In this document: positions 31,893-37,734 of the stretch, piece by piece
Numbering within the stretch: the first letter of the stretch is position 1
Layout of the letters: every line of letters starts with the position of its first letter
Source: a bacterium
GTDB lineage: Bacteria; Bdellovibrionota_C; UBA2361; RFPC01
DNA: 37,734 nucleotides
Assembly: GCA_022763385.1 (NCBI GenBank)
Contig: JALEGQ010000134.1
Span: forward strand, 1-37,734
Direction of reading: 5' to 3'
Notes under the pieces: generated by a model
Databases searched by the model: none
What the model saw: only the letters and a program-made list of their open reading frames with translations
What the model was told of the DNA's origin: nothing
Position numbers and translations under genes: made by a program

Positions 31893-32983
31893 TGTATTCT
31901 TACCGACCACGTTCCGTTTCCTACTCTCTCCCCCAGGTGGCAGAGTATGCCGAGTGCACTCTCACTGCTGACCACGGAGGAGAGGTCCTCCACATCTGCG
32001 CTCTTGAAGAGCCGGTTTCCGGGGGGGTCGTCTTTGTTTCCTCGCGAAAAGAGGCAAAAGGAATTCATTTTCACCAACTCGCAGAGGCAGGCATCATCGC
32101 CGTCATCTGCGATGCAGAGGTTGCCGAAGGGATAGAAGGCCCTCTCTCGGTGCTCGTTTCCTCCACCCCGAAGGAGAGCTTCGCCCGCTTGATTCCACAC
32201 TTTTATACCGCAGCAGAAGAGGCACGCGGCTCGATACATCACACCGCCGTTATCGGAGAGAGGTGCTCCATTGATCCAACAGTTGAGATCGGCCCCTACG
32301 TAGTCCTCGGTTCGGATGTCACGATCGGAGCAGGCACCCGCATTCATCCACATGTGGTGATCTACGACGGAGCAACGATCGGAGCGGAGTGCACCCTTCA
32401 CGCTGGCGTCATCATTCGAGAGTACACCGCTATCGGTGAGAAGTGCCTCCTCCAGAGCGGAGCAGTAATTGGCGCCGATGGCTTTGGCTATGCCCCACAT
32501 CCCACCGAAGGGGTGAAGCTCATTCCACAGGTCGGAACCACCCGGCTTGAACCGGGAACGGATGTTGGCGCCAATAGCTGTATTGATCGCGGAGCACTCG
32601 GAACTACCCGGATAGGGCGCGGAACGAAGCTCGACAACCTCGTCCAGGTCGGACACAACGTCCAGATCGGAGCGTACTCCTTTCTCTGTGCCCAAGCTGG
32701 AGTTGCTGGAAGCTCAAAAGTAGGAACACAGGTAACGCTGGGAGGACAGGTCGGGGTAGCAGACCATCTCCAGGTCGCTGATGGTGTTCGGGTTGGGGGA
32801 AAGAGTGGTGTGCTCACCTCCCTCCCAGAGAAAGGGGACTACGCCGGATACCCCGCCATCCCACTCGCGCAGTGGGCACGACGTGAAACGCTTCTGAAAC
32901 GGCTCACCGAATCTTCGCGAGATCTCCTCGCGTTCCTGAAAAAGGTTGCGAGAAGCGGTGAAAAGAAAGATCGTTCCGACTAA
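31892..32983 (+). CDS. lpxD: UDP-3-O-acylglucosamine N-acyltransferase LpxD
   Basis: Adds the second acyl chain in lipid A synthesis. The N-terminal uridine-binding domain (~1-110) is followed by a left-handed beta-helix of hexapeptide repeats (~115-320), for example IGAGTRIHPHVVI and IGEKCLLQSGAVIGADGFGY. The catalytic His is in NLVQVGHNVQIG (residue 255 with this start). A C-terminal helix ends the protein. The 363-residue length is typical. ATG 31892 overlaps an upstream TGA; a GTG one codon earlier is also possible. It shows that the host has a lipid A-type outer membrane. No lpxA or fabZ is adjacent. Confidence 0.95.
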   Translation: MYSYRPRSVSYSLPQVAEYAECTLTADHGGEVLHICALEEPVSGGVVFVSSRKEAKGIHFHQLAEAGIIAVICDAEVAEGIEGPLSVLVSSTPKESFARLIPHFYTAAEEARGSIHHTAVIGERCSIDPTVEIGPYVVLGSDVTIGAGTRIHPHVVIYDGATIGAECTLHAGVIIREYTAIGEKCLLQSGAVIGADGFGYAPHPTEGVKLIPQVGTTRLEPGTDVGANSCIDRGALGTTRIGRGTKLDNLVQVGHNVQIGAYSFLCAQAGVAGSSKVGTQVTLGGQVGVADHLQVADGVRVGGKSGVLTSLPEKGDYAGYPAIPLAQWARRETLLKRLTESSRDLLAFLKKVARSGEKKDRSD

Positions 32984-32999
32984 ACGATCCGGAGTCTTT

Positions 33000-34580
33000 A
33001 TGAGCAGATCCTCATCCGCACGCCCCCTCTCGCTGTTCTTCTCTGTCGCACTGGTCGCATCGGTGCTCTGCGTCAGTAGCGGATGCTCCAAGCAGGGAGA
33101 ACAAGAGGCTCGGACGAGAAAAGCTCCTCCTCAAACCCTCCACGTCGTCACTCACAGCAGCCTTGAACCTCCAGTAGAGCAGCTCCTCAAGGCCTTTCTC
33201 GATACCCGTCCTGCTGATGCTCCAACACTTCAGATCACTCAAGTGTCGCGACAGGGATATGACGACGCCATTCAGATCGCCCATGGGGAGCAGAAGCCTG
33301 ACCTCTGGATCTCCGCCTCCCAGTTTGCAGTGGAATGGAGCGGGTCGCAGCTCAGAAATCTCGGGGCAGCACAACGAGAGTGCCTGAGCTATGGGGAGAG
33401 TCCGATCTCACTCGTGACAACAGCAGAGTTTCTCGAAAAGAGCTGCGCCAAAAAGTCCGACTGTTTGTGGGAGAGCGTCCTCTCCACTCTTCTTGCTCCC
33501 CCCGCGGGAGGGCAAGAAGTTCCGCACACCATCTTTGCGAAGGCTCCACAGGGGGGCCCCGCAGAAACCCTGGCGTGGTCAACCCTTTTTTACTGGAGTG
33601 GAGAGGAGATCTTCTCTCCCGTACTCCCAGAAGAGCCGCGGTGGCGAGCGCTGCACCTTTCTCCCCTGCCCTCGTACGAAACCATCTTTCGACAGCTTGC
33701 TCGGTTTGGCCCTGGAGAATACGGCATCGCCACCGCACCAAAGTCAGTCCTTCTCCGATTTCAGGCGACGCCCGCAGAAGATGATGCCCAGCCGCTCATT
33801 GCAATCACTCCAGCTGACTTTCCCCCACTAGCGGAGCAGTTTCTCGTCTGTACCTCTGCGGGAGACTGGGTGGATCCGAAAAAGCTCTCCCTGATTGCTG
33901 AATTCCGAACTTTCTTGAGCAGCGAAACGGGAAGAGAGATCCTCACGGCCCACGGCTTCTCACCACTCGATAAAAAGTCAAAGCTCCGAACAGTATCGGA
34001 AACCGAAGTTCGAGATTTTGCCGAAAAGAGCTGGAAACAGTTTCGGAGACCCGTCGCTCTCCTCATCGCCCTTGACACCTCGGCAAGCCTCGAAGAAGAG
34101 GGGAAGATCTACGACGCCCGACGTTTCATCCGAACCATCGCTGCAGAGGAACCAGAAGATTCACTCCTCTCCCTTCTCACCTTCTCGTCGAACTCCACCA
34201 AAGAGAGTGAGTTTCACCAGAAACGGGATGACCTTCTCCGCCTGCTCGAACAGAGCCAACCGATCGGGGGTGGTACCGTCTTTGATGCACTCGTAAGAGC
34301 ATACGAAAAGATCGAAAAAACCCCTGCCGGATATCGAAGGCGATTAGTCTTTCTCACCGACGGAGGAGACCTCAACTCCCGCCTCACCAAGGAGCAACTT
34401 CTCCTCCTCGCCAAACGGCAACGGAGCTGGAGAACCATTGACACCACCGTTATCGGACTACAAGGCAGCGGAAGCGACCTCGCCGCCATCCAAGAGATCA
34501 CCACTGCCCTCAATGGCCGCTATCTGGCAGTAAATCCAAGCGAGATAGACCGTGCCATCCCCTCGGTGGTCAGTCCGTAA
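33000..34580 (+). CDS. Lipoprotein fusing a substrate-binding domain to a von Willebrand factor A domain
   Basis: A 526-residue exported lipoprotein. The signal segment ends SSGC (acylated Cys29). Residues ~40-330 resemble a type II periplasmic solute-binding protein (TLHVVTHSSLEPPVEQLLKAF, PDLWISAS, SPISLVTTAEF). Residues ~345-520 form a VWA domain with a complete metal-dependent adhesion site: DTSAS (DxSxS), the threonine in GGGTVFDAL and the aspartate in FLTDGGD. The frame extends 18 codons further upstream, but ATG 33000 has GGAG six bases before it and begins the signal peptide. Sixteen bases separate it from lpxD. The fusion is known in some bacteria, but its ligand and partner are not. 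No ABC permease is adjacent. Confidence 0.85.
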   Translation: MSRSSSARPLSLFFSVALVASVLCVSSGCSKQGEQEARTRKAPPQTLHVVTHSSLEPPVEQLLKAFLDTRPADAPTLQITQVSRQGYDDAIQIAHGEQKPDLWISASQFAVEWSGSQLRNLGAAQRECLSYGESPISLVTTAEFLEKSCAKKSDCLWESVLSTLLAPPAGGQEVPHTIFAKAPQGGPAETLAWSTLFYWSGEEIFSPVLPEEPRWRALHLSPLPSYETIFRQLARFGPGEYGIATAPKSVLLRFQATPAEDDAQPLIAITPADFPPLAEQFLVCTSAGDWVDPKKLSLIAEFRTFLSSETGREILTAHGFSPLDKKSKLRTVSETEVRDFAEKSWKQFRRPVALLIALDTSASLEEEGKIYDARRFIRTIAAEEPEDSLLSLLTFSSNSTKESEFHQKRDDLLRLLEQSQPIGGGTVFDALVRAYEKIEKTPAGYRRRLVFLTDGGDLNSRLTKEQLLLLAKRQRSWRTIDTTVIGLQGSGSDLAAIQEITTALNGRYLAVNPSEIDRAIPSVVSP

Positions 34581-34653: not shown

Positions 34654-36072
34654 ATGGCGTTACAGAGCGTACCACATCACCTTGATAACGAGAGCACACG
34701 GCTTCCCCAAGGAGAGCCAACCATTGATTTTGGGCGGGGCGAAGTCGCTTGCTCAGCAAATCTCCGACTCGAACGAACACTTGGTCATCTTCCCGGCTGG
34801 ATTAACCGCGAAGCATGCCTCCCCTGCCACGCCACAGAACTCTTTCTTGATGAAGAGCTTCGAGACACCGCAGGAGAAGCGGTCCTTCAGCAGCACCTCG
34901 TAACCGTGATTCCCCCAGAAGCGCTGAAAGCACTTCCCGAACCTCACCGAGAACGAGTACGGGTCCTCGCCTCTTCAAAAGAGTGGGGCAGAGCACTCGA
35001 AATAGATACCCCCCTTGAGATCGGCGGGATCCCCTCTGTCATCTCCGTCAAGAGCGCGGGAGCAACCGCGTATGCTCGTGCCAACCGAGGACACGCCTCT
35101 CCACAGTGTCACACCCACCCCTTTGTTCAAGAGACATTTGAACCCCAGATCGGAATGTTTGAGCACGATTCAGCGATCGCCGAAAAAGAAGCAAGTGAAG
35201 CGCTTCGAAAACGTGGACTCGATACTGAGAGAATCCTCGCGATCTACCGTATCGAGGAGTTCGCCGATTCCACGGGAGAACTGAAGCCGCTTTCCTTCTA
35301 TACCGACCAGAGGATTATCCCGGAGGGAAGTGAACCAGTGCTCATGTTCCGAGCCACCCGAACCGCCTTTCGCATGCTCGATCCGATCCAACTCGCCCGA
35401 GAAGACCGAAGCTTCTCCCACTCCGGTCCAGATCCTGAGATCCAACGAGGTATTGCCGCGATGATCACCGAATGCCGAGAGATTACCGCCCAGATATTAG
35501 GGAAGGAATCAGTCACTGCCCAAGAGTATCTCGAATGGCTAATTAATCGGACCATCTCTCAACGGCTTCCCCTCATACTAGAAGGATACCATTTTGGCAG
35601 CTCCAACTGGGAGCGATGTGCGCAGAACAACAGTCTCCTCGGAGAGAAGTTCGACGTCGAAGGAGCAGAGCTCAAGCACAAAGTGCTCACCGGAGATGTA
35701 GGGGAATACCTCTCTCAGGTGAGCTTTCAGTGGTCACGATTTATCAAAGGGATATTTGAGCTAAGCGCCGTGCTTGACGGCTATCTTCGGGATCCGATCT
35801 CGTTCGAGGCACTCGGCTCCGCCGTCTTCAACGCCGCTCACACTGCGATGGAGCGGACAAACCTCCGCTCCGTTTATGAGAGCCTCTCCGGCACCGGCCG
35901 TCCCCGCTACGACGACTTTGTAAAATCAACACAAGGCATCTCCTGGGAACTCTTCGGAGATTTTGTACTTCCAGGAACCGGGACCACCGAACAAGAACAG
36001 GCTTACAGCAGAGCCATCTCCGATCATGCTCGAGCTGCGGATTTCTTTCGGAAAGGAGAATCATTGCCATGA
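34654..36072 (+). CDS. Divergent SelO/YdiU-like pseudokinase protein
   Basis: A 472-residue protein I recognise only by motifs. VKSAGATAYAR (Lys133) matches the SelO ATP-lysine motif (LKGAGxTPYSR), and SEALRKRGLDTERILAI (Glu182) matches SEALxxLGIPTTRALAL. VLMFRATRTAFRM matches the VxRVAPSxxRFG block. NNSLLGEKFD (Asn325, Asp334) has the exact spacing of the metal-binding NxSIxGxTID. SelO proteins transfer AMP to target proteins. The residue before the Asn, an Asp thought to be the catalytic base in SelO, is Gln324 here. The C-terminal ~105 residues do not resemble SelO and are partly duplicated at 37031-37346. Length fits SelO (~480). The ATG lacks a clear ribosome site. The 70 bases before it hold no clear promoter. 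Confidence 0.65.
   Translation: MALQSVPHHLDNESTRLPQGEPTIDFGRGEVACSANLRLERTLGHLPGWINREACLPCHATELFLDEELRDTAGEAVLQQHLVTVIPPEALKALPEPHRERVRVLASSKEWGRALEIDTPLEIGGIPSVISVKSAGATAYARANRGHASPQCHTHPFVQETFEPQIGMFEHDSAIAEKEASEALRKRGLDTERILAIYRIEEFADSTGELKPLSFYTDQRIIPEGSEPVLMFRATRTAFRMLDPIQLAREDRSFSHSGPDPEIQRGIAAMITECREITAQILGKESVTAQEYLEWLINRTISQRLPLILEGYHFGSSNWERCAQNNSLLGEKFDVEGAELKHKVLTGDVGEYLSQVSFQWSRFIKGIFELSAVLDGYLRDPISFEALGSAVFNAAHTAMERTNLRSVYESLSGTGRPRYDDFVKSTQGISWELFGDFVLPGTGTTEQEQAYSRAISDHARAADFFRKGESLP
35740..36055 (+). repeat. Duplicated segment, copy 1 (3' end of SelO-like gene)
   Basis: This stretch recurs without gaps at 37031-37346, with an offset of 1291 bases. The first 98 bases (35740-35837) differ at two positions only. 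The next ~85 are strongly diverged. The remainder is again mostly conserved. The segment encodes the last part of the SelO-like protein. Confidence 0.95.
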
Positions 36073-36287
36073 AGACACTGCGAAAGTCTCATCACAGGGG
36101 CATCCCACGGATTCGTCCGGAAAGTTATTGCACTATGAAAATGAATCGCTATAACAAACCACTCGCGTCTTTGTCCCTCTGGGAGCTGTTTTCGGGCGGA
36201 GCCCTGTTCCGAGCGACGTGTTCGAGAGGTGACAAAATCTATAGTTGGAGCAATACTATTTGGAGAACTTCCCATGCTCACTCCTGA
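36069..36287 (+). CDS. Possible small coupled ORF after the SelO-like gene
   Basis: A 72-residue frame whose ATG overlaps the SelO-like stop (ATGA), with AAAGGAG about ten bases upstream. The product is basic at the N-terminus with no recognised domain; residues 33-48 are mildly hydrophobic (LASLSLWELFSGGALF). It overlaps the next gene by 14 bases. The base composition is more AT-rich than the genes to the left. It may be real, or the remnant of a 5' part of the next gene. Confidence 0.35.
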   Translation: MKTLRKSHHRGIPRIRPESYCTMKMNRYNKPLASLSLWELFSGGALFRATCSRGDKIYSWSNTIWRTSHAHS

Positions 36288-37050
36288 GAGAAGTCAACCG
36301 AAATTTCTTGGAGCCGCTTATGATTTAGCGAGCTGTGGGATAGGAGTACAAACTCTCGTAGTAGAGGTATTAACTGGAGAGCGTGACTCGCCACAGCTAT
36401 CTGATAGAGATATCTTTGGCGCTTCATCCAACTTATTGCTAAACATTCACCACTGTGGAGAACATCTCGGAGAACGTGGAAATTCCTTTCGAGAGAAGGA
36501 GCGAGAGCTTTCTGATCAGTGGTCTGGCTTACGGCGAAAAGCGACTCGAGCTCTACTATCCAGTCACGAAGAGAGAGGGGTGGAAGCATTTCAGGAAGAA
36601 GAGTTTCCCCACCTCATGAAGAAGCTGTTTGAGGGCAAAACTCTCCAGGAGGAGCAACTTCGGGAGCTAGCAGAAAATTTTTCTTCGGAACTTACATTTA
36701 GCGGAACGATGCTACGCATGGATCTACCAATGGAGCGATGTCTCTGGTTTGTGGAAGGTCTGCGCAAAGTTCTTCGAGAGGGGGCGTGTGCTCAAGAGTT
36801 TCTTGCTTACCACCTCCAAAAGCTCACCTTAATGACCGAAATCTTTGCGGCTGATGTGGAGGCAAGTCGATCACCAGGAGACGTTCGTCCTCCTGACCCA
36901 GATGGAAGTTGGGCGAGGAACTGGCGAGAGCAATTAGGGGTCGAAATGCCAACCGCACAAGATCTGATCTCCACTTCATGGACCACTATTCAAAGGGGTT
37001 GGGCCTCTCTGACGATGACACTGGGAATAGTTTATCAAAGGGATATTTGA
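36274..37050 (+). CDS. Hypothetical protein ending inside the duplicated segment
   Basis: Not recognised. With ATG 36274 (GGAG eight bases upstream) it has 258 residues; a GTG at 36229 would add 15. The product looks mostly helical and charged, with cysteines at several positions (LASCGIG, HHCGEHL, MERCLWF, GACAQEF). There is no signal peptide or membrane span. Its last six codons read out of frame through the start of the second duplicated segment and stop at a TGA there, so the natural C-terminus has probably been lost to recombination. The region is AT-richer than the surrounding genes and may be acquired. Confidence 0.55.
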   Translation: MLTPERSQPKFLGAAYDLASCGIGVQTLVVEVLTGERDSPQLSDRDIFGASSNLLLNIHHCGEHLGERGNSFREKERELSDQWSGLRRKATRALLSSHEERGVEAFQEEEFPHLMKKLFEGKTLQEEQLRELAENFSSELTFSGTMLRMDLPMERCLWFVEGLRKVLREGACAQEFLAYHLQKLTLMTEIFAADVEASRSPGDVRPPDPDGSWARNWREQLGVEMPTAQDLISTSWTTIQRGWASLTMTLGIVYQRDI

Positions 37051-37346
37051 GCTAAGCACCGTGCTTGACGGCTACCTTCGGGATCCGATCTCGTTCGAGG
37101 CACTCGGCTCCGCCGTCTTCAACGCCGCCAAAGCAGCAATGAATATAGCCGATCTTCGCATCGTACATGACGGACTCTCCCCACCCGGCCTCCCCGACTA
37201 CGCCCCCTTCGTGAAATCAACACGAGGCATCTCCTACGAACTCTTCGGAGATTTTGTACTTCCAGGAACCGGCACGACCAAACAAGAACAGGCCTACAGC
37301 ACCGCCATCTCAAAACATGCTCGAGCTGCAGGCTTCTTCGAGAGGG
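37031..37346 (+). repeat. Duplicated segment, copy 2
   Basis: Copy of 35740-36055. The homology begins exactly one base after an in-frame TAG (37028-37030), so the copy opens directly at the junction. It carries no N-terminal SelO-like motifs. Confidence 0.95.
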
Positions 37347-37351
37347 CTTAG
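37061..37351 (+). pseudogene. Orphan C-terminal fragment of the SelO-like gene
   Basis: A 96-residue open frame from GTG 37061 to TAG 37351, collinear with residues 374-468 of the SelO-like protein. The outer parts are nearly identical (DGYLRDPISFEALGSAVFNAA; FGDFVLPGTGTT), while the middle (~residues 27-47) has diverged. It lacks the kinase-like part and a convincing ribosome site, so it is probably a remnant. The reading frame has stayed intact despite many substitutions, which could mean it is still translated or that it is a donor for recombination with the full gene. Confidence 0.7.
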
Positions 37352-37659: not shown

Positions 37660-37734
37660 ATGCTAACTCACCGAGCAAGGAGAAACAAGCTTATCCACAC
37701 CAACTTAGGCGAGACAGCCTACCTGCTCCGCAAA
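37660..37734 (+). CDS. Possible 5' end of a gene cut by the window edge
   Basis: An ATG at 37660, preceded by GGGAG four bases upstream, opens 25 codons to the end of the window (MLTHRARRNKLIHTNLGE...). A second open frame starts at ATG 37638 and also runs off the edge. The ribosome site favours 37660. Too short to identify. Confidence 0.3.
   Translation, partial: MLTHRARRNKLIHTNLGETAYLLRK

Follow-up and report, generated by a model that had tools for sequence, protein, structure and literature searches.

The window, by which we mean the whole stretch of DNA analysed (37,734 nucleotides), is the complete contig C59 of a 3.07 Mb assembly in 228 contigs, and the sequence stops at position 37734. 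Close to this end lies a forward-strand ORF of 472 codons whose coordinates were confirmed by the ORF listing, together with two copies of a C-terminal module and an orphan gene between them (Table 1). The ORF is preceded on the same strand, at a gap of about 70 bases, by a gene for a VWA/solute-binding protein (32946-34580). It is a real coding gene, with a codon usage LLR of 0.19 bits/codon as compared to a genome mean of 0.195 over 134 genes of the same genome, and the other five frames across this interval gave coding LLR values of around zero or lower. Two short Cys/His motifs in the translation, CLPCH (residues 55-59, window positions 34816-34830; of the CxxCH type and close to the N-terminus) and CHTH (residues 152-155, within the insertion that precedes helix C), are possible metal or redox sites.

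Table 1. Positions, in window coordinates, of the ORF, its SelO-like blocks and the downstream elements.
Feature	Position	Strand	Basis
SelO-like orphan ORF, 472 aa	34654-36072	+	ORF listing; genome-like codon usage; top SelO-profile score in own genome
Beta3 Lys block, residues 129-142, VISVKSAGATAYAR; Lys133 codon at 35050-35052	35038-35079	+	15.7 bits; paired with the SelO Lys in all alignments, by hhalign and MAFFT
Insertion of about 21 residues (approx. residues 150-170) between beta3 and helix-C blocks; SelO lacks it	35101-35163	+	hhalign gap; Lys to Glu177 44 residues versus 23 in SelO
Helix-C block, about residues 176-198, AEKEASEALRKRGLDTERILAIY	35179-35247	+	18.1 bits
RATRTAFR, residues 233-240; Arg233/Arg240 spaced like SelO R176/R183	35350-35373	+	Four MAFFT modes
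Metal block, residues 323-336, AQNNSLLGEKFDVE; Gln324 at general-base position, Asn325/Asp334 at metal positions	35620-35661	+	9.9 bits
C-terminal module X, about residues 363-465, with no SelO counterpart detected	35740-36047	+	83.5% identical DNA copy downstream
Gene B, orphan protein between the X copies	36274-37050	+	64% identical own-genome paralog
Truncated second copy X', frame open from 37031	37031-37351	+	72-75% protein identity

Genomic surroundings and distribution

Comparison of the module X DNA at 35740-36047 with that at 37031-37338 revealed a mosaic in which the reading frame is kept and dN/dS is about 0.5. The two copies are 98% identical over their first 90 bases, about 61% identical over the next 90 and then up to 100% identical, and this succession of near-identity and strong divergence in blocks suggests recombination between the copies, or gene conversion.

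Gene B has a single detected relative, an own-genome paralog split across contigs C158 (L033, L035) and C145 (L034, L036). The sequence that splits it, at two contig ends, terminates in inverted repeats (CCCAGCGTTGCATAAAAATTTG and the complementary form), may have duplicated a TAGA target, and is probably an insertion sequence. Beside the paralog lies an Rhs-type gene, for which the RHS match was weak and below the cut-off, the sequence being typical of Rhs proteins by reading. Rhs-type genes flank the paralog on both contigs (L033 3-1022 and L036 754-4647), with a small intervening ORF, possibly for immunity, and also a gene resembling methyltransferases. The window could end in an island of this type. 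Since the X copies are mosaic and the gene B paralog adjoins an Rhs-type gene, the sequence comparisons support the placement of the 472-codon ORF in an accessory, recombining region.

Searches of 97 genomes, 46 genomes of the organism's own class and 383 genomes of relatives (overlapping sets), and also of plasmids and phages, recovered no homolog of the ORF, matching only this ORF and the copy of its own C-terminus. Scans of species genomes and viral contigs with short exact peptide patterns, which reach close relatives only, likewise returned no homolog. Two weak tblastn matches (L020 and L021) were rejected as chance because their frames contain stops. Elsewhere in the same genome there is a canonical SelO (G000:C24:1296-2639, L006; 393 bits), and therefore the ORF is not the organism's SelO. 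This canonical protein ends in TFCGT, and the product of the gene upstream of it ends in a DnaJ-like stretch. The proposal of the sequence-only reading that the ORF is an accessory rather than a housekeeping gene is thus supported by the absence of homologs from the class genomes and relatives, the separate canonical SelO and the adjoining partial duplication.

Family searches with the ORF found no Pfam family at E values up to 10, the SelO family PF02696 included, and nothing identifying it came from NCBIfam, PADLOC or the PDB sequences; a PHROGs search gave no significant match. Membership of PF02696 is assigned by a profile match over the curated cut-off, which the ORF did not reach, and it is therefore filed here as SelO-like and not as SelO.

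Similarity to SelO by profile, block and alignment

The SelO profiles combined proteins encoded by relatives and on plasmids (L003-L012, L017, L037-L046) with part of E. coli YdiU. Using the 22-sequence profile, hhalign scored the ORF at 38.7 (P = 3e-4, 69 columns), and scores lay between 36.4 and 39.2 with every SelO profile of at least 12 sequences, the match always covering query residues about 104-202, with Lys133 and helix C. The corresponding maxima of the controls were 26.1 for 200 shuffles and 31.7 for the 432 same-genome ORFs scored, and by SelO profile the ORF ranked first among 166 proteins of its own genome. L016, which had beaten the query in an early decoy test, was rejected as a fair decoy: it had been picked with the SelO model, which it matches in a stretch resembling the catalytic loop of kinases. 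Broadened SelO profiles run in HMMER failed to tell the ORF from decoys, a result counted against a SelO-like assignment; these HMMER profiles penalise the insertion present in the ORF. The outcome that the sequence-only reading had named as refuting its proposal, a profile search without a SelO match, is what Pfam and the HMMER profiles gave; by hhalign the ORF scored above every scored decoy.

When position-specific matrices of four SelO motifs were searched for with loose spacing, the four blocks together reached 42.1 bits in the query versus a maximum of 18.7 bits in 356 real ORFs and 21.4 bits in 1000 shuffles. Alignment with MAFFT to the SelO kinase core only, in four modes, paired K133, E182, R233, R240, N325 and D334 with invariant SelO residues, and all four C-side invariants were matched in just one of 300 shuffles and one of 97 real C-halves. 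Against full-length SelO the C-side motifs were misplaced, which was also counted against a SelO-like assignment; the alignment evidence given here rests on the core-restricted version, the full-length one having been set aside.

The sequence-only reading had listed four SelO motifs in order, and three of them hold. In the Lys block VKSAGATAYAR, with Lys133, is in register with LKGSGRTPYSR of SelO and shows the K-G-x-G-x-T-x-[YF]-[SA]-R context, and the score of this block was reached by none of 2000 shuffles and by 2 of 314 real ORFs. The helix-C block, whose score was reached by neither the 2000 shuffles nor the 314 real ORFs, displays the pattern RE...SEA....G..T.R.LA as AEKEASEALRKRGLDTERILAI, the Arg of RE being replaced by Ala. 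Glu182, earlier named as a SelO motif residue, does align with the Glu of the SelO 'SEA', but it is probably not the partner of Lys133: the 'RE' Glu of SelO, which we take as the Lys partner and which lies 23 residues after the Lys, has its counterpart in Glu177 by hhalign and in Glu160 by MAFFT, and in an ambiguous assignment Glu177 appears the likelier partner. The metal block falls at exactly the expected place with a score reached by 28 of 2000 shuffles and 6 of 314 real ORFs (p about 0.015-0.02), although with an earlier 12-sequence profile using longer blocks the result was weaker (13% of shuffles). As originally noted, the spacing from Asn325 to Asp334 is nine residues, identical to that of N253-D262 in SelO. 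The remaining motif, RATRTAFRM, scored below chance (-7.3 bits) and survives only as two Arg residues seven apart, at the spacing of SelO R176/R183, the Arg pair of the inverted-ATP pocket; from Lys133 to Arg233 there are 100 residues as compared to 63 in SelO. Three blocks in the right order are, at the level of sequence, an above-chance similarity to SelO that is good but not overwhelming, and the comparison with shuffles and same-genome proteins in both the profile and block tests supports a distant relation to SelO.

The absence of other SelO signatures counts against such a relation, as does the lack, in the genomes searched, of homologs that would show conservation of the motif residues. 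The N-terminal GHQFG/GDGR and C-terminal IPRNH blocks of SelO scored at chance level in the query, and the C-terminal Cys motif is missing, the ORF ending in FFRKGESLP. In SelO proteins the C-terminal Cys/Sec motif is frequent, not universal. Asp334 is followed by 138 residues versus about 200-240 in SelO, and within the C-terminal ~105 residues, held from the outset to be without a SelO counterpart, no SelO block was matched. The AlphaFold models were mostly helical and of low confidence, with a pLDDT of 39.6 from the single sequence and of 46.9 on addition of 27 SelO core rows; in the latter, strands precede Lys133 and residues 170-186 are helical, with no confident fold. Foldseek with this latter low-confidence model retrieved no kinase or SelO match, and the modelling leans slightly against the relation.

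A putative nucleotide site with Gln at the Asp252 position

Gln324 had been singled out in the sequence-only reading as standing where the presumed catalytic Asp should be, and it does occupy the Asp252 position, which is Asp in 22 of the 22 diverse SelOs compared. Asp252 is the proposed general base of SelO (PMC8017715), and E. coli SelO depends on its metal-ligand Asp, the D256A variant being inactive (PMC12663964); we equated D256 with the metal-ligand Asp, D334 here, by sequence matching. With Gln324 in this position, ordinary SelO chemistry on Ser/Thr/Tyr seems less likely. In the MchC branch, which is recognised as a distant subfamily of SelO and is required for the maturation of microcins (PMC3281104), each of the nine sequences read has Ser in place of Asp252, and since this branch is nevertheless functional, loss of Asp252 alone is no proof of inactivity.

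We consider it probable, with due reserve, that the ORF encodes a strongly diverged, single-lineage protein that either belongs to the SelO pseudokinase superfamily or is closely related to it. Such a protein would have a protein-kinase-like core binding a nucleotide via Lys133 and the helix-C Glu, probably Glu177, whilst a divalent metal would be held by Asn325 and Asp334, and Arg233 and Arg240 might lie on the phosphates as in the inverted ATP pose of SelO. Survival of these residues at about 20-28% identity makes it probable that selection still acts on the putative nucleotide/metal site. The protein would then either transfer AMP (or NMP), with another base or a base-free acceptor, or be a nucleotide-binding regulator, and the unrelated C-terminal module, apparently recombining with its downstream copy, may give target or partner binding.

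The same residues could belong to a descendant of SelO that is no longer catalytic and is either decaying or purely a scaffold; Gln324 and the reduced C-lobe would then be signs of inactivity. Replacement of an Asp invariant in 22 SelOs, the short stretch after Asp334, the lack of homologs in the genomes searched and the truncated duplicate next to the gene are all in keeping with this explanation, which we nonetheless regard as unlikely given an intact frame of 472 codons with normal codon usage, the retention of Lys133, Asn325 and Asp334, and the precedent of MchC, without which microcin does not mature although Asp252 is lacking in it (PMC3281104). A resemblance by chance in the Lys and helix-C segments would instead make the ORF an unrelated, mostly helical orphan of a recombining, Rhs-associated island. 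The absence of family matches would fit, as would the mostly helical low-confidence AlphaFold models without a kinase match, the lack of most SelO blocks and the position of the gene B paralog beside an Rhs gene; however, block and profile scores that beat all shuffles and real decoys, in order and spacing, and a metal block landing at the predicted place make chance an improbable source of the similarity.

Within the preferred assignment to the SelO superfamily, a more specific and rather doubtful proposal is that the ORF represents a third branch beside SelO and MchC, having a nucleotide/metal site without the general-base Asp, an insertion before helix C and an exchangeable C-terminal module that recombines with downstream copies and would confer target specificity within a mobile, Rhs-associated island. 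SelO is an example of a pseudokinase with a new activity, and a relative in which the presumed base is gone but the residues for nucleotide and metal are kept would be of use in testing how much of this site is required for AMP transfer, as MchC already suggests, although one orphan known from one assembly carries limited weight.

Comparison with SelO, NiRAN and MchC

The likeness to the SelO/YdiU protein adenylyltransferases (PF02696) comprises the Lys block, the helix-C SEA...R.LA, the Asn-x8-Asp with L.GE...D and the Arg-x6-Arg spacing. In contrast to these proteins the ORF has Gln for Asp252 and 21 additional residues before helix C, lacks GHQFG/GDGR, the C-terminal Cys motif and a Pfam match, and has a shorter tail that bears an unrelated C-terminal module. 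In the literature the NiRAN domain of nidoviruses, a SelO-like nucleotidyltransferase, is a precedent for nucleotide transfer by an active site remotely similar to that of SelO (PMC8017715); unlike the ORF it keeps the general-base Asp.

The MchC branch was rejected as the parent family, as hhalign with an MchC profile gave a P of 0.6 and the surroundings are not a microcin-type operon; on the Lys and helix-C blocks MchC-branch proteins score lower than the query in nearly every case. MchC-type relatives (L047 10651-12201, L049 to L056) came from enterobacteria and from Vibrionaceae, and most have a toxin-activating lysine-acyltransferase as neighbour. MchC adjoins an acyltransferase gene and in most clusters also HlyD/ABC exporter genes; the ORF lacks these and has the VWA/solute-binding protein gene and gene B as neighbours. 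What the ORF shares with MchC/MceJ is the loss of Asp252 (Ser in MchC, Gln in the ORF), the retention of the Lys and of the Asn...Asp metal pair, and the location in an accessory region.
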